Assembly (NCBI GenBank): GCA_025454125.1
Contig: JALOPA010000046.1
Span: forward strand, 1-9,660
DNA length: 9,660 bases
Reading direction: 5' to 3'
Origin: Thermodesulfobacteriota bacterium
GTDB taxonomy: Bacteria > Desulfobacterota > DSM-4660 > Desulfatiglandales > HGW-15
Shown in pieces: positions 2,284 through 9,475 of the stretch (positions are counted from its first letter, which is position 1; the number at the start of each line of letters is the position of its first letter). A program made the position numbers and the translations under genes. The notes beneath the pieces were generated by a model, which was not told the DNA's origin, did no database searches, and worked only from the letters and a program-made list of their open reading frames with translations.

Positions 2284-3081
2284 ATGAGCGAAGAAGAGGA
2301 AAAAGGCAGAAAAAAGACTGATCGGACCGATCCGTCGGATCGGACGGATCGGACTGAGAAAGCAAAGAAGCAGGGGCGGATCCGCCCGAGTGGCGGCTAC
2401 CGCAATTTGCGCTCGTTTCAGGCGACCAGCATTATCTACGACGCCACAGTGTCGTTCTGCGACCGCTTCATGGACAAACGCTCGCGCACCGTGGACCAGA
2501 TGGTGCAAGCCGCACGCAGCGGCCGGCAGAACATTGCCGAGGGCAGCCGGGCCTCGGCAGCCTCCAGCCAGACCGAGTTGAGGCTGATCAATGTGGCCCG
2601 CGCGAGCCTCGACGAACTGCTGCTCGATTTCGAAGACTTTCTGCGTCAGCGCGGCTTGCCCCAATGGGCAAAAGACGATCCACGCGCGCTGGAAGTGAGG
2701 GCGGTGGGCAGAGAGCATCGGACCGATCCGACGGATCGGTCGGATCAAGGGCCTTACAGCCCTTGGCTCAGGAGCGACGACCCGGCGGTGGTGGCCAATG
2801 CTATTATCTGTCTGATTCACCAGGCCAACTACCTGCTGGACCGCCAGATTGCAGGGTTGGAGCGGCAGTTCATCCAGGAGGGTGGCTACACAGAGCGCCT
2901 GGCCGCAGCGCGGATCGAGGAGCGCGGCAGGCAACGGCAGCCGGAGCAGAAGACGCCGGTCTGCCCAAAGTGCGGTGAGCCCATGGCGCTGAGGACAGCG
3001 CGGAAGGGCACCAATGCAGGGGCGCAGTTCTGGGGGTGTTGCAGGTATCCGAAGTGTAACGGCCTGCGGCCGGTTGAGTAA
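2284..3081 (+). CDS. Four-helix-bundle / suffix-domain protein with C4 zinc ribbon
   Basis: A 265-residue soluble protein. Residues about 39-125 (GGYRNLRSFQ through FLRQRGLP) match the 23S rRNA intervening-sequence / four-helix-bundle family, including RSRTVDQMVQAARS and QNIAEGS. Residues about 160-215 fit the 'four helix bundle suffix' domain described after this bundle. Residues 227-258 form a topoisomerase-type C4 zinc ribbon: C227-x2-C230, then C252 or C253 and C258 in a CRYPKC context. Two low-complexity stretches, residues 13-24 (DRTDPSDRTDRT) and 146-155 (HRTDPTDRSD), are encoded by period-9 GATC repeats and fall in linkers, not domains. The bundle family is related in fold to the DGR accessory protein Avd. 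The zinc ribbon suggests nucleic-acid binding, but no function is established. The ATG at 2284 is chosen from the promoter position; there is no Shine-Dalgarno. It may be co-transcribed with the CCA gene 69 bp downstream. Confidence 0.8.
   Translation: MSEEEEKGRKKTDRTDPSDRTDRTEKAKKQGRIRPSGGYRNLRSFQATSIIYDATVSFCDRFMDKRSRTVDQMVQAARSGRQNIAEGSRASAASSQTELRLINVARASLDELLLDFEDFLRQRGLPQWAKDDPRALEVRAVGREHRTDPTDRSDQGPYSPWLRSDDPAVVANAIICLIHQANYLLDRQIAGLERQFIQEGGYTERLAAARIEERGRQRQPEQKTPVCPKCGEPMALRTARKGTNAGAQFWGCCRYPKCNGLRPVE
2320..2355. repeat. Period-9 GATC repeat, cluster 1 (in frame)
   Basis: Four 9-bp units of consensus GATCSGNCN have GATC at 2320, 2329, 2338 and 2347. Being 9 bp, each unit adds exactly three codons, D-R/P-T/S. 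It sits in the N-terminal tail of the four-helix-bundle gene. Adjacent units tend to be mutually inverted (GATCGGACC / GATCCGTCG), giving overlapping dyads. Confidence 0.85.
2716..2747. repeat. Period-9 GATC repeat, cluster 2 (in frame)
   Basis: A degenerate CATC unit at 2716 is followed by GATC at 2725, 2734 and 2743, again in strict 9-bp phase and the same reading phase as cluster 1. It encodes the linker HRTDPTDRSD between the four-helix bundle and the suffix domain. Confidence 0.85.
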
Positions 3082-3088
3082 TGAAATT

Positions 3089-3130
3089 GATCGGACCGAT
3101 CAGTCGGATCGGACCGATCGGTCGGATCGT
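3089..3130. repeat. Period-9 GATC repeat, cluster 3 (intergenic)
   Basis: Five units with GATC at 3089, 3098, 3107, 3116 and 3125 lie in the 69-bp gap between the four-helix-bundle stop (3079-3081) and the CCA gene start (3151). Same consensus and period as the two in-gene clusters, but outside the coding region. Several overlapping dyads such as GATCGGACCGATC could form hairpins in RNA; there is no following U-tract. Confidence 0.85.
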
Positions 3131-3150: not shown

Positions 3151-4455
3151 ATGAGTGCTCGCAGCACCAGCAAAATAGCGTGGAAAATTCCAGGCTTTGT
3201 CCGGTCGGTGATCGACCGGCTGCACCGGGCAGGGCACGAAGCCTACATTGTGGGCGGCGCTGTGCGAGACCTTTGCATGGGCCGGCCTGCGACGGACTGG
3301 GATGTCACGACCTCGGCGGCCCCTGCAGAGATCGCCTCTGTTTTCAAAGGTCTTCGAAGTTTCTCTCTCAAGCACGAAACCGTGACACTCGTGCACGAAG
3401 GCCGTCACTATGAGGTGACACCCTTCAGAGGGCCGAGCCAAACCCTTGAAGATGATCTCCAGCACCGGGACTTCACGATCAATGCCATGGCCTATGACAT
3501 GGGAAAGTCTGTGGTCATTGATCCCTGGGGAGGAAGGAGAGACATCGAGAAAAGGGTCGTGAGAGGGGTAGTCAGCCCTGAGGAGAGATTTCGCGAAGAT
3601 CCTCTGCGGCTCTTGCGGGCGGTTCGGTTCGCCGCGGAGCTTGAATTCCGCTTGGAGCTGAGGACCTCAAGGGCGGTTTCATTGATGGCTGGGTCCATCA
3701 CCGGTGTCGCGCCCGAGCGGATCAGAGATGAACTGGTCAAGACTCTTGTGTGCGAAAAGCCTTCGAGAGGCCTGAAACTCCTCAGCAGAACAGGGCTGTT
3801 CGACTTTATCCTGCCTGAACTTGGCAAAGAGGTAAAGGCGAAGGAGAGGGTGGTGGATCAAACGCCTCCCGATTCTGTGCTCCGGTTGTCAGCGCTTTTC
3901 TGCGCGCCCAGCCGATCCGCCACTGCGCCTCGCGAGACACAAAACGGCCTGACCGCCAAGTCCGTTATGGCCCGCCTTTGTTTCAGCAAAAGCATGATCC
4001 GGAAGGTGGTCAGACTCGTCGAGGAAGAGAAGTCGCTCGCTTCATACGATTCGTCCTGGAAGGATGGGGATCTGAGAAGGTTGGTGCGCAGGGTGGGAGC
4101 CGAGAACTGGGAGATCCTCGTGGCGCTCCGGACTGCCCATCTGACGGGTCCGGTCAAGGGCAACACGGCGGCTCTTGACCGGCTGACGGAGGTTCACGCG
4201 AGGGTCAAGAGCCTGATCAAAGCGCCTCTGGTCAGGGGACCGCAGGATCTGGCGATCAACGGCTCCGATGTCATGAAAATCACAGGCCTGTGTCCAGGGC
4301 CTGAAGTCGGCCGAATTCTGAAGCATCTTTCTGAAGAGGTCATGGACCATCCTGAGTGGAACAGGAAGGCGAAGCTCGCTGCCTTGGTGAGAAAAATGAA
4401 ACCCGCCGCAGCAAGCTCCAGAGAATCCCCCCCTGAGGCGGGTAAACCCTCCTGA
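3151..4455 (+). CDS. cca: CCA tRNA nucleotidyltransferase / poly(A) polymerase family (class II)
   Basis: A 434-residue cytoplasmic class II nucleotidyltransferase. It probably adds or repairs the 3' CCA of tRNAs. The head domain has GGAVRD (35-40) and the metal-binding pair D49 and D51 in TDWDVTT. HRDFTINAMA (105-114), EDPLRLLRAVRFAAEL (149-164) and APERIRDEL supply the nucleotide-recognition and neck segments. The body and tail run to about residue 420. There is no C-terminal HD phosphohydrolase domain such as E. coli Cca carries. In some bacteria CC- and A-addition are split between two such proteins, or a relative serves as poly(A) polymerase; sequence alone does not settle this. The ATG follows GAAAAGGG with about 7 nt spacing. 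The last residues (EAGKPS) and the stop codon come from a 19-bp tandem repeat. It may share a transcript with the upstream four-helix-bundle gene. Confidence 0.9.
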   Translation: MSARSTSKIAWKIPGFVRSVIDRLHRAGHEAYIVGGAVRDLCMGRPATDWDVTTSAAPAEIASVFKGLRSFSLKHETVTLVHEGRHYEVTPFRGPSQTLEDDLQHRDFTINAMAYDMGKSVVIDPWGGRRDIEKRVVRGVVSPEERFREDPLRLLRAVRFAAELEFRLELRTSRAVSLMAGSITGVAPERIRDELVKTLVCEKPSRGLKLLSRTGLFDFILPELGKEVKAKERVVDQTPPDSVLRLSALFCAPSRSATAPRETQNGLTAKSVMARLCFSKSMIRKVVRLVEEEKSLASYDSSWKDGDLRRLVRRVGAENWEILVALRTAHLTGPVKGNTAALDRLTEVHARVKSLIKAPLVRGPQDLAINGSDVMKITGLCPGPEVGRILKHLSEEVMDHPEWNRKAKLAALVRKMKPAAASSRESPPEAGKPS

Positions 4456-4509
4456 GGCGGGTAAACCCTCCTGAGGCGGGTAAACCCTCCTGAGGCGGGT
4501 AAACCTGGC
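4434..4509. repeat. 19-bp tandem repeat, four copies
   Basis: Units of TGAGGCGGGTAAACCCTCC start at 4434, 4453, 4472 and 4491. The first three are identical, the fourth diverges in its last bases, and a fragment (GGAGGCG) follows. The array fills nearly all the convergent gap between the CCA gene and the radical SAM gene. Its second copy supplies the CCA stop codon (TGA, 4453-4455). Each unit carries an imperfect palindrome, CCTCCTGAGGCGG across unit boundaries, so the transcript could fold into serial small hairpins. No unique spacers are present, so it is not a CRISPR. Confidence 0.9.
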
Positions 4510-4530
4510 GGAGGCGAATGAAGCCTTCGC

Positions 4531-5589: not shown

Positions 5590-5660
5590 CGTCACTCCCG
5601 CGAAGGCGGGAGTCCAGAAATTCCTGGACAGACTGGATTCCCGCCTCCGCGGGAATGACG
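5590..5660. repeat. MITE-like palindromic repeat, copy 1
   Basis: A 71-bp inverted repeat. The left arm begins CGTCACTCCCGCGAAGGCGGG, and the right arm is its near-complement ending GCGGGAATGACG; each arm also contains its own CCCGC/GCGGG mini-hairpin. This is the widespread GTCATTCCCGC...GCGGGAATGAC family of non-autonomous repeats, often mis-annotated as short proteins containing IPASAGMT. It lies in the predicted leader of the lipoprotein mRNA. The longer outer inverted repeat seen around copy 2 is absent here. Confidence 0.85.
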
Positions 5661-5723
5661 GAAGAAGAGGCTTGCCGCCCCTTCGCGAGACCATCAATAA
5701 AAGAAGAAAGGCAGCTGTGACCG

Positions 5724-6359
5724 GTGATGAAAACAAAAGATAGTTTAAGAAAAAGCTTAAATCAAGGGTTGATCCTGTGCCTCCTTGGCGCGGCCCTTTT
5801 CATGGCGGCCTGCAGTTCCATTGCCTATGTGCAGCTCAATGACCGCGTTCCTGCTAAAGATTCCGCGCTGGCCGGCAAAAAGGCATTCCTGTCTGTGGAA
5901 GATGAAAGAAAGACAAAAGAGTTCGCCGGCCCGGGAGTCAAACGTGAGTTCGACCGTTTCTCTGAAACCCTTGCCTACTCTGTACAGAAAGGGACCGAGC
6001 CGGCGCTCAAACACGGCCTTTATGACGTCCCGTCGCTGGTGAAGGAGGCTTTTCGCGCCAGGGTCGAAAGCGAGGGAGTCGAGATCCTCACCGAGCGAAA
6101 GGCAGGGCAGATGGAATTGGTCTTCGCGCTCCAGGACTTCTCCCTGGATCTGGTCGGCCGGAACTGGAAAACCAAATTCGGGTATGAAGTCCGGCTCATG
6201 AAGAACGGGAACCTTCTTGCCAAGCAGTTCGCCAATGGAGAGGCGGAAAGGCTCAAACTCATGGGAACCGAGCAGGCCGATGCGGTTGTGGGAGACCTCT
6301 TTTCGGATGTGATGAACCGAATGAATGTGGCCAAACTTTTTAAGGACGCCGGCCAATAG
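5724..6359 (+). CDS. Small lipoprotein of unknown function
   Basis: A 211-residue protein with a classical lipoprotein signal: basic N-terminus (MMKTKDSLRKS), hydrophobic core about 15-28, and lipobox FMAAC with the lipidated Cys at residue 30. Ser follows the Cys, not Asp, so by the E. coli rule it would be sorted to the outer membrane, facing the periplasm. The mature part is about 180 residues, mixed alpha/beta and charged, with a LSVEDERKTKE segment vaguely like YajG-type lipoproteins. That likeness is weak and I do not assign a family. The GTG at 5724 is used; an ATG follows at once (5727), and AGAAAGG lies about 12 nt upstream of the GTG. It is a single-gene unit, divergent from the radical SAM gene and separated from the kinase by a repeat-filled spacer. 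Confidence 0.8.
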   Translation: MMKTKDSLRKSLNQGLILCLLGAALFMAACSSIAYVQLNDRVPAKDSALAGKKAFLSVEDERKTKEFAGPGVKREFDRFSETLAYSVQKGTEPALKHGLYDVPSLVKEAFRARVESEGVEILTERKAGQMELVFALQDFSLDLVGRNWKTKFGYEVRLMKNGNLLAKQFANGEAERLKLMGTEQADAVVGDLFSDVMNRMNVAKLFKDAGQ

Positions 6360-6405: not shown

Positions 6406-6499
6406 CAGGCACAAAGGGACAAAGGCACATAGGCACAAAGCAGAAAGAGGATCCTGGTATATCCCTTTGTCCCTCTGTGCCTTTGCCCCTTTGTCCCTG
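6406..6499. repeat. Octamer arrays facing each other as a long inverted repeat
   Basis: The left arm (6406-6442) is built from period-8 units of GGCACAAA and variants. The right arm (6463-6499) is built from CCTTTGTC-like octamers and is the reverse complement of the left over 37 bp with about five mismatches; the loop is about 20 bp. RNA from either strand could form a long hairpin. It is not followed by a T-tract, so it is not a standard intrinsic terminator, though it could still separate the lipoprotein and kinase transcripts. Confidence 0.75.
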
Positions 6500-8000: not shown

Positions 8001-9259
8001 TTGAAATCAAAAGACAAAGTATGTGTCGTCAGCCTGGGGTGCGCGAAGAACCTGGTGGACAGCGAGCACATCCTGGGGTGGCTTTCGGAAAAGAAGTATC
8101 CCATCGTTGGAAACCTGGAAGAAGCGGACATCGCGGTGATCAACACCTGCGGCTTCCTCCAGTCGGCGGTTGAAGAAGCGATCCGCACCATCCTCGAGGT
8201 GTCTGAACGAAAGAGGAAAGGCCGGCTGCGCAAGCTCTATGTCGTCGGCTGCTTTGTTCAGCGCTACGGGTACAAACTGAGGAAGGAGATTCCCGAGGTG
8301 GACGGCTGGGCCGGTCCCGGGGAAATCCATCAGATCACGGAACTCCTCCAAGGACGAAAGCGTAAGGACCCGCCTTTTCTCATCAACCGGCCCACCTATC
8401 TTCCCGACCATCGGACCCCTCGAGTGCAGTCCACGCCGCTTTGGAGCGCCTATCTCAAGATCGCCGAGGGGTGTTCCCACCGGTGCAGCTTCTGCCTCAT
8501 TCCCAAGCTGCGCGGTCCCTTGAGAAGCCGAAGCCTGGAATCGCTGATCGAAGAAACGGTCCAGATGGTAGAGCGGAGGACCTGGTGGAACGGCTTGTGC
8601 AGATCCGAGGGCTCTCCTGGGTCCGCCTTCTGTACAGCCATCCCGAGAGGATCACGGACAGGCTTTTGGAACTCATGGAGTCCCCATCCCCTCTGTGCCC
8701 CTATCTCGACATCCCCATTCAACACGTAGACCCGGCGATGCTCAAGGCCATGGGGAGGGGCATGAGCGAGGCGAAAGTGCGGCGGCTCATCGAAAGGATA
8801 CGATCCAGGAACGAGCGAGTCAGCCTGAGGACAACGGTCATGGTGGGATTCCCGGGGGAAACAGAGGCCGCTTTCGAGCGACTGCTGGGGTTTGTGAAAG
8901 AGGCGGAATTCGATCACCTGGGCGCGTTTGTCTTCAGCCCGGAGAAGGGGACCACCGCCGGCCTCATGAAAGACCGAGTGGCGCTTGCGGCGGCAGAGCG
9001 AAGAAGGAGCCGGATCATGCGCCTCCAGGCGAGGATCTCAAAAAAGAAGAATGAGGCCAGAATCGGGCAGGTCCATCAGGTGTTGATTGAAAGCGCCGGC
9101 CGGGGACCGGAGTGGACGGCCACCGGCCGAACCGTTTTCATGGCGCCGGAAGTGGACGGGCAGGTTCTCATCCGGGGGCCGGCGGAAGAGGTGGGCCGGA
9201 TCGTGCCGGTGAAAATCACAGGAGCCTCGACCTATGATCTCACCGGAGAAAAGGCCTGA
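8001..9259 (+). pseudogene. rimO: Ribosomal protein S12 methylthiotransferase RimO, frameshifted with internal deletion
   Basis: RimO adds a methylthio group to the conserved Asp of ribosomal protein S12 using two Fe-S clusters. The first part (8001 to about 8575) has the UPF0004 cysteines C14, C50 and C84 and the radical SAM motif CSHRCSFC (C158, C162, C165). The second part, in another frame (about 8576-9259), carries the rest of the barrel (YLDIPIQH, MVGFPGET, GAFVFSPEKGT) and the TRAM domain. At the junction the sequence passes from ETVQMVE directly to EDLVERLVQI. The segment normally between, GxxEIxLVAQDTTxYG and a few residues, about 23 in all, is missing and the frame changes. The summed length (about 419) against the usual 430-440 agrees with a deletion of about 70 nt. 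No single-frame readthrough restores the protein, so it is a pseudogene or a sequence or assembly error. The TTG start at 8001 has AGGAAG 10 nt upstream. Confidence 0.88.
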
Positions 9260-9353: not shown

Positions 9354-9475
9354 TGCTGAAAAACATATTCGGTGCGTCACTCCCGCGCAGGCGGGAGTCC
9401 AGATTAGCCAGGGAAGCCTGGATTCCCGCCTTCGCGGGAATGACAGCTAGGACGGCGAAAAGGGGTTTTTCAGCA
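9354..9475. mobile_element. MITE-like element, copy 2, with outer terminal inverted repeats
   Basis: A core palindrome at 9375-9445 is closely related to the copy at 5590-5660. It is enclosed by a perfect 11-bp inverted repeat, TGCTGAAAAAC at 9354-9364 and GTTTTTCAGCA at 9465-9475. The 122-bp whole has no coding capacity, and I see no clear target-site duplication. It fills most of the 255-bp gap between rimO and the polyprenyl synthetase gene; the remainder (9260-9353) shows no gene, promoter or terminator that I can support. Confidence 0.75.

Follow-up and report, generated by a model that had tools for sequence, protein, structure and literature searches.

The window analysed here (the whole stretch of 9,660 nucleotides, positions 1 to 9,660 of contig JALOPA010000046.1 of a Thermodesulfobacteriota bacterium) contains a four-helix-bundle gene for which the same nine-base tandem repeat occupies the coding N-terminal tail, the coding interdomain linker and the gap after the stop codon, and the question raised by this locus is what relates the gene to its repeat. 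The answer proposed is that gene and arrays are probably one mobile element, of a class which spans the four-helix-bundle TIGR02436/PF05635 family. In relatives, arrays stand on either side of the gene and are reverse complements of each other, their motif and period track the protein branch, and orthologous sites either contain or lack the unit. The copy in the window would be such a mobile unit, and its protein is predicted to bind its cognate array and to drive movement.

The window gene and its arrays

Coordinates of the gene, its domains and its arrays are given in Table 1.

Table 1. Features of the four-helix-bundle locus (positions in the window)
Feature	Position	Strand	Basis
Four-helix-bundle suffix protein gene, 265 aa	2284..3081	+	ORF; TIGR04258 and TIGR02436 above cut-offs
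Four-helix-bundle domain, residues 44-113	2413..2622	+	TIGR02436 match
Suffix domain, residues 167-214	2782..2925	+	TIGR04258 match
Topoisomerase-type C4 zinc ribbon, residues 227-263	2962..3072	+	PF01396, 34.0 bits, cut-off 32
Array 1, four units GATCNGWCN, coding N-terminal tail	2320..2355	.	Repeat finder, TRF, count
Array 2, four units, coding linker between bundle and suffix	2716..2751	.	Repeat finder, TRF, count
Array 3, five units, past the stop codon	3089..3133	.	Repeat finder, TRF, count

An alternative start of the gene is possible at 2272, and the stop codon occupies 3079-3081. The layout of bundle fold and zinc ribbon described in the initial annotation was recovered, since the protein passed the cut-offs of TIGR02436 (30.7 bits, cut-off 24) and Zn_ribbon_Top1 (34.0 bits, cut-off 32), as well as that of TIGR04258 (76.4 bits, cut-off 40). 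Against Pfam 23S_rRNA_IVP (PF05635) it scored 27.1 bits, under the gathering score of 33.8; this family and Zn_ribbon_Top1 were the only Pfam matches at E 0.001, with no Y1 transposase domain. Neither a transposase nor a reverse transcriptase was detected among the seven window ORFs scanned. A gene of dapA type (-) and one for a CCA-type nucleotidyltransferase (+) flank it; it does not lie inside a 23S rRNA gene, an Rfam scan of the window having given no match. As a guide to insertion, the neighbouring genes in the window (MBL, dapA, cca and rSAM) were of no use, being matched in 0/80 loci, and a cca search covering 8 genomes, in which dapA was not seen beside cca, was uninformative. A search for phage carriage of the gene gave no match.

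A direct recount gave, as first annotated, 13 nine-base units in three clusters, 12 of them with an intact GATC: these start at 2320, 2329, 2338 and 2347 in array 1, at 2725, 2734 and 2743 in array 2 (whose first unit, CATC at 2716, is the sole broken one) and at 3089, 3098, 3107, 3116 and 3125 in array 3. A repeat finder and TRF reported the same three arrays. The pattern GATCNGWCNGATC has 9 matches in the window against 0.01 expected, and 0/200 shuffles reached 9. Most of the genomes used are metagenome bins, which could suggest chance or an assembly artefact as the source of the pattern; against the shuffles, and with complete named plasmids showing the pattern too, the probability of this is negligible. 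Array 1 would be the left end and array 3 the right end of the proposed element.

The window contains several further repeats. At 6407-6498, after the ORF at 5724-6359, inverted period-8 arrays (AGGCACAA x4.2, then TCCCTTTG x4.6, 21 bases apart) resemble the solo hairpins found beside relatives of the window gene. Period-7 tandem runs lie between the MBL-fold gene and dapA at 1069-1120 (CCGTTCA-type) and 1204-1234 (TCGGCGG-type), with no four-helix gene adjoining, and are possible solo arrays. Two similar intergenic inverted repeats of the CTCCCGCG..GCGGGAGTCCAG type, seen by eye at 5590-5665 and 9375-9445, are a dispersed repeat of a different sort, and a 19-base tandem repeat of about 4 copies (4428-4516) lies at the 3' end of the nucleotidyltransferase gene. 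A gene of MiaB/RimO-type radical SAM appearance (by eye) at 8001-9259 is split over the overlapping frames 8001-8729 and 8441-9259, by a frameshift or a sequencing error.

Repeat arrays across the suffix family

Of 8000 candidates scored, all of them significant, 120 homologues were listed, one of them the window's own protein; runs of the Asp-x-Ser/Thr type, searched with a loose pattern, are present in 116 of these 120. Contigs were scanned for the best 80 of 555 confirmed loci, the titles of which span many phyla. In 72 of these best 80 loci, at least three GATC at nine-base spacing were found in or adjoining the gene (no GATC array in L004, L013, L036, L042, L047, L057, L064 and L073), which agrees with the earlier proposal that family and repeat travel together. 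The number of units per linker also varies among homologues, so that constant linkers, one of the two outcomes named beforehand as refuting, were not seen; there are 0 to 8 units in linker 1 and 0 to 6 in linker 2 for the 65 scorable of 83 genes; these counts leave out the 18 unscorable genes and the class "inside 4HB core", whose boundary is misplaced and which includes the N-terminal tail.

In other branches of the suffix family, the corresponding positions hold arrays of another sequence, among them GTCSGACNN, CTGGGACNN and ATAGGGGNG with period 9, ACACGGACNN with period 10 inside coding linkers, and CAAGTCG, which has period 7 and is found on both flanks. The initial annotation had given weight to a unit of exactly three codons, and this had to be abandoned as the key, being ruled out by periods 7, 8 and 10: in sister branches, the coding linkers can hold arrays of 10-base units, and units of 7 or 8 bases form arrays next to the gene. 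Arrays were counted around 205 suffix-family genes (212 minus 7 duplicates; counts with the duplicates in gave the same picture) and in control windows of the same loci, and only these controlled counts were used, TRF listings of sister-branch arrays including chance repeats. Densities per kb were 0.772 around genes vs 0.044 in controls for period 9, 0.097 vs 0.005 for period 10, 0.064 vs 0.015 for period 7 and 0.037 vs 0.019 for period 8; periods 11 to 14 were not enriched around the 205 genes, and 59 of these genes had no array at the threshold used.

Among non-GATC arrays (74 genes), the period was shared in 93/94 same-gene pairs vs 39% between genes, and the motif was shared at 75% or more in 67/93 same-gene pairs vs 14% between genes. 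Of these motif-sharing pairs, 46 were inverted and 20 direct, with 1 tie; when the self-complementary GATC type was included, orientation was even (69 inverted vs 68 direct). Motif similarity drops with protein distance (Mantel r -0.51, 0/999, 69 genes), a correlation to which simple descent of the DNA within and around the gene contributes, and which was computed with a statistic that ignores genome kinship; the dispersal tests described below are less exposed to this. In genome G098, a 41-copy period-9 array (TGTCCACAC) lies downstream of the suffix gene of locus L118, 692-1055 from the gene start; this genome has 909 overlapping matches of the GATC pattern, and ten 20-kb stretches of it hold only two arrays.

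For the GATC type, the self-complementary consensus GATCNGWCN describes the units better than the 9-mer GATCSGNCN first proposed. The G and the C of this consensus are found in 295 and 293 of 304 units for arrays within matched gene stretches (81 loci), in 84/84 and 84/84 units for arrays adjoining these stretches (some still coding the N-terminal tail) and in 40/43 and 41/43 units for distant arrays. No symmetric arrangement of units beyond that of shuffles was found inside GATC arrays. Codon use in the runs differs from that of the remainder of the same 83 genes: GAT makes up 0.90 of the Asp codons in runs vs 0.44, CGG 0.87 vs 0.29 of the Arg codons, and TCN 0.98 vs 0.56 of the Ser codons. 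Because run codon use is biased and the consensus is the same inside and outside the gene, the constraint acts on DNA. The runs could instead have been selected as disordered Asp-Arg-Ser/Thr linkers, the regularity of the DNA being a by-product of slippage, and it is true that 100/109 coding GATC arrays are in the frame where a stop cannot arise (GAT CNG WCN). This is nonetheless very improbable given the unchanged consensus outside the gene, the bias among synonymous codons, the occurrence of period 10 in linkers and of period-7 arrays outside genes, and the copies dispersed elsewhere in the genome; linker selection at the protein level alone is ruled out by the copies outside the gene and the codon bias.

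Standalone four-helix genes

Standalone TIGR02436 loci, intended as a negative control, were found to have arrays in 18/30 cases, nearly all of period 7 or 8, vs 88/129 suffix genes (p 0.40). Since these control genes carry arrays, the claim was widened to the whole four-helix family, and the suffix domain was rejected as a special partner. The initial annotation missed that the association reaches four-helix genes without suffix or zinc ribbon, as it missed that the arrays are the ends of a mobile unit.

From the standalone set, 9/68 loci (gene not located) and 4 duplicate genes were left out; on named plasmids, 18 loci of 24 matching records were used, several of them interrelated. Arrays are present on both sides of 15/18 plasmid genes and 23/43 other standalone genes, vs 0/114 for control positions shifted by 850 bases in the same loci. 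For 35 pairs of the same period, the reverse-complement identity of the two sides was 0.825 vs 0.534 when partners were swapped (0/1000 swaps), with the inverted comparison better in 29 pairs, the direct one in 5 and a tie in 1.

In standalone members, the four-helix protein is the only annotated ORF of a 420-520 bp unit, and neither a transposase nor a catalytic domain was found in the family ORFs scanned (window and plasmid relatives). Five plasmid members were compared with PF05635 and all pass (108-138 bits). The Avd relation put forward in the initial annotation stands in part: Avd profiles give weak matches to standalone members (PHROG 1.5e-9 and 2e-6; bAvd 1.5e-8, or 35.5 under its cut-off of 40; Avd equivalog 29.8, below its cut-off of 80), but the window protein has no Avd match in PHROGs (E 0.01) or Pfam (0.001). 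Solved relatives 2gsc and 2rld each have five chains per entry, and some suffix forms carry an added zinc ribbon of nucleic-acid type. An Rfam scan of 20 standalone loci gave no match.

A defence role was rejected after a PADLOC scan of three proteins gave no match. At L401, L403 and L408, on named cyanobacterial plasmids, the four-helix gene and its arrays lie within a CRISPR-Cas gene set (cas6/cas4 and cas10/cmr3).

Filled and empty sites

The unit made of gene plus arrays is present or absent between relatives at six sites, on named cyanobacterial plasmids. One neighbour protein is identical in the operon common to the Nostoc plasmids L396 and L405: the L405 site is filled in L405 and empty in L396, L422 and L423, and in the next gap of the operon, 300 bp away, L396 is filled and L405 empty. 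A further relative, L421, is without the unit at the L405 site and has a 9-base overlap at the junction. The Trichormus plasmid locus L400 holds a 421-bp unit which is absent in L414 (Nostoc linckia) and L415 (Aulosira), whose flanks are 97-99% identical to those of L400; GTAAT is found on both sides of the unit and once in the empty site, a clean 5-bp target duplication, and L416 (Nostoc C052) has a deletion remnant there. The other filled sites are L399 (empty in L417-L419), L397 (an insertion between nrdB and nrdA, empty in L424) and L411 (empty in L425), where the junctions of the empty sites differ by 12-17 bases. A clean target duplication was thus seen at only 1/6 sites (L400), most flanks of the other filled/empty pairs being 85-95% identical. 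The comparison of L401 with L420 is complex and was left out of the six-site count.

Unit number changes as well: between L400 and L406 (97% identical), the left array differs by 14 bases, exactly two units. For the GATC type, the gene-holding interval of L019 is about 1060 bases; of eight relatives two were informative, L429 with an interval of 206 bases and L430 with one of about 374, their right-hand anchors being short (84 and 33 bases, respectively).

These comparisons bear on the reading in which the protein acts as a regulator by binding arrays in DNA or mRNA (its own included), the arrays having spread by slippage and recombination, and the insertion polymorphism reflecting homologous exchange between plasmids. 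Arrays do lie close to start and stop codons, their unit number changes between orthologues, and the TAACTGA repeats of one genome, mostly just upstream of start codons, have been proposed as sites to which a regulator binds (PMC4679880). Slippage leaves unexplained, however, the presence or absence of whole units within similar flanks and in different gaps of one operon, and we regard this reading as unlikely.

Dispersal of the arrays in genomes

Dispersal was studied in 194 genomes of one phylum, 97 of which have the suffix family (96 above the cut-off); TIGR02436 was present in 34/34 genomes chosen among these. The earlier suggestion that the genome be searched for the 9-mer was answered by a repeat that is scattered, yet tied to the family, so that the other outcome named as refuting, scatter with no such tie, was not seen either: GATC arrays were found in 29/97 genomes with the suffix family vs 4/97 without it. 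The corresponding numbers for the other two motifs (97 genomes each) were 14 vs 2 and 15 vs 1, and those for any of the three motifs 45/97 vs 6/97 (p about 1e-10, kinship ignored), so that six genomes carry arrays without a detected suffix gene. A reversed-pattern control gave 0 in all 194 genomes. The GATC pattern was absent from 68/97 suffix-family genomes, and all three motifs from 52/97.

Whether the dispersed arrays match the motif of the gene was scored in 79 genomes with fetched genes, with some family genes left unfetched and kinship ignored. Elsewhere in the 17 genomes with a GATC-bearing gene, GATC arrays occurred in 12, GTCSGAC in 1 and the period-10 motif in 0. The 10 genomes with a GTCSGAC-bearing gene had their own motif elsewhere in 7, GATC in 2 and period 10 in 3, and the 9 genomes with a period-10-bearing gene had their own motif in 3 and each other motif in 3, a weak specificity. 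In 50 genomes whose fetched genes bear none of the three motifs, arrays were present elsewhere in 9, 3 and 3; for GATC alone, 62 genomes have no array in their fetched genes, and 10 of these carry one elsewhere (some genes unfetched).

A period-7 hairpin recurs in genomes G105 and G119, about 15 times in each, with two inverted arms, mostly of four units and nearly fixed in sequence, and unrelated loops. Gene L223 lies between two near-identical copies of the period-7 hairpin, and gene L228 between two copies of a 190-bp element. The period-10 element of G191 has inverted array ends around a core some 158 bases long; between its two copies, a portion of this core seems (by eye) to be inverted. 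Empty sites for the period-7 hairpins were sought between G105 and G119 at two sites and none was found, one site being conserved and the G119 contigs breaking at the element in the other. Contigs end about 40 to 215 bases from period-10 arrays in L311 (G191) and L312-L314, and copy numbers in draft genomes are therefore probably underestimates.

Solo hairpins of this kind would also be expected if the four-helix gene were a passenger (cargo or regulator) and an unrelated RAYT- or IS-type transposase recognised the arrays in trans. The ORF without catalytic domain, and the one 5-bp duplication, as made by transposases, point the same way. This arrangement seems rather improbable to us, since a single gene family is associated with many end sequences and periods and the end sequence tracks the protein branch, which would not be expected for a passenger.

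Proposed mechanism

Returning to the mobile element made of gene and arrays, its simplest form would read [7- or 8-base unit]n, an ORF of about 120 codons, [reverse complement of unit]n, with a length of 420-520 bp and insertion between genes, often within operons. In the suffix form, to which the window copy would belong, the unit is mostly of 9 or 10 bases; the ends of the element would in part have been taken into the reading frame, where they code for protein tails, or would adjoin it, and further copies of the array would occupy the interdomain linkers, mostly in the stop-free frame GAT CNG WCN. Solo arrays and hairpins of the same motif in the same genomes would presumably be non-autonomous copies.

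The Avd-like protein would bind its own array, as a DNA or RNA hairpin; we infer this from its being the only annotated ORF of the unit, from its likeness to Avd and from the zinc ribbon of some suffix forms. The five chains of 2gsc and 2rld would fit an oligomer on a repeated site. The protein would then promote movement with host enzymes, which are invoked because no catalytic domain was found; either the host or some activity not yet recognised must supply cutting and joining. Slippage may afterwards alter the number of units.

A wider version of this proposal, tentatively held and given somewhat less than an even chance, would define a class of autonomous elements moving without a transposase, in which the four-helix (S23/IVP/Avd-like) protein reads its own array, which forms the inverted ends. 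Its solo copies would include heptamers of the STRR type (STRR are the heptamer tandem repeats of cyanobacteria), in cyanobacteria and other groups, as well as the 9- and 10-base repeats, and an ORF in a 23S rRNA intervening sequence would represent this element after insertion into rRNA.

Comparison with known systems

In 23S rRNA intervening sequences, an ORF lies between complementary ends. The IVP ORF (PF05635) belongs to the same protein family as the four-helix gene, whereas the four-helix unit sits between protein genes. Diversity-generating retroelements offer a likeness through Avd, whose profiles are matched by standalone four-helix members, and differ in their reverse transcriptase, which the scanned window ORFs lack. 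Foldback elements share the architecture, with inverted ends of short tandem repeats flanking a middle part, but those compared are eukaryotic and tied to ordinary transposase families, unlike the four-helix element, which is without transposase.

The element resembles REPIN-RAYT systems, in which a gene lies among inverted repeats also dispersed as hairpins, and repeat types differ near different gene versions (PMC3116915). The tyrosine (Y1) transposase domain of RAYTs is, however, absent from the four-helix protein; the ends of the four-helix element are tandem arrays of 7-10 bases, and its gene-bearing unit is itself seen to come and go. REPIN-like dispersed hairpins beside the gene were seen in period-7 relatives, and the self-complementary unit of the window shows no orientation.

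Heptamer tandem repeats (TAACTGA and others) are likewise of period 7, mostly intergenic and subject to indels in 7-base steps, and their host groups overlap with those of the four-helix elements (PMC4679880). TAACTGA repeats are reported there from Beggiatoaceae, Cyanobacteria and Bacteroidetes; the abstract states of their spread that "no mechanism is evident", and the author raises a repeat-binding protein as a possible mobile element. These repeats were published without a link to a four-helix protein, and a term search of PMC4679880 returned no mention of S23 or four helix.

In the openly available literature searched, no paper was found to connect the four-helix family with tandem repeats; one paper containing both terms lists four helix bundle genes in tables of phage regions. 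What appears to be new is that three features occur together: the element moves, its tandem-array ends track the protein, and it has no recognisable transposase. This novelty would lessen if a transposase acting in trans proved responsible.

Biological meaning

A common protein family of unknown function is assigned here to a mobile element, and this element could specifically account for how short tandem repeats spread among bacteria, a question left open in the abstract of PMC4679880. Should the protein prove to read its repeat, the family would be a ready set of protein/DNA-motif pairs with different periods, and such pairs would suit the study of how recognition evolves.
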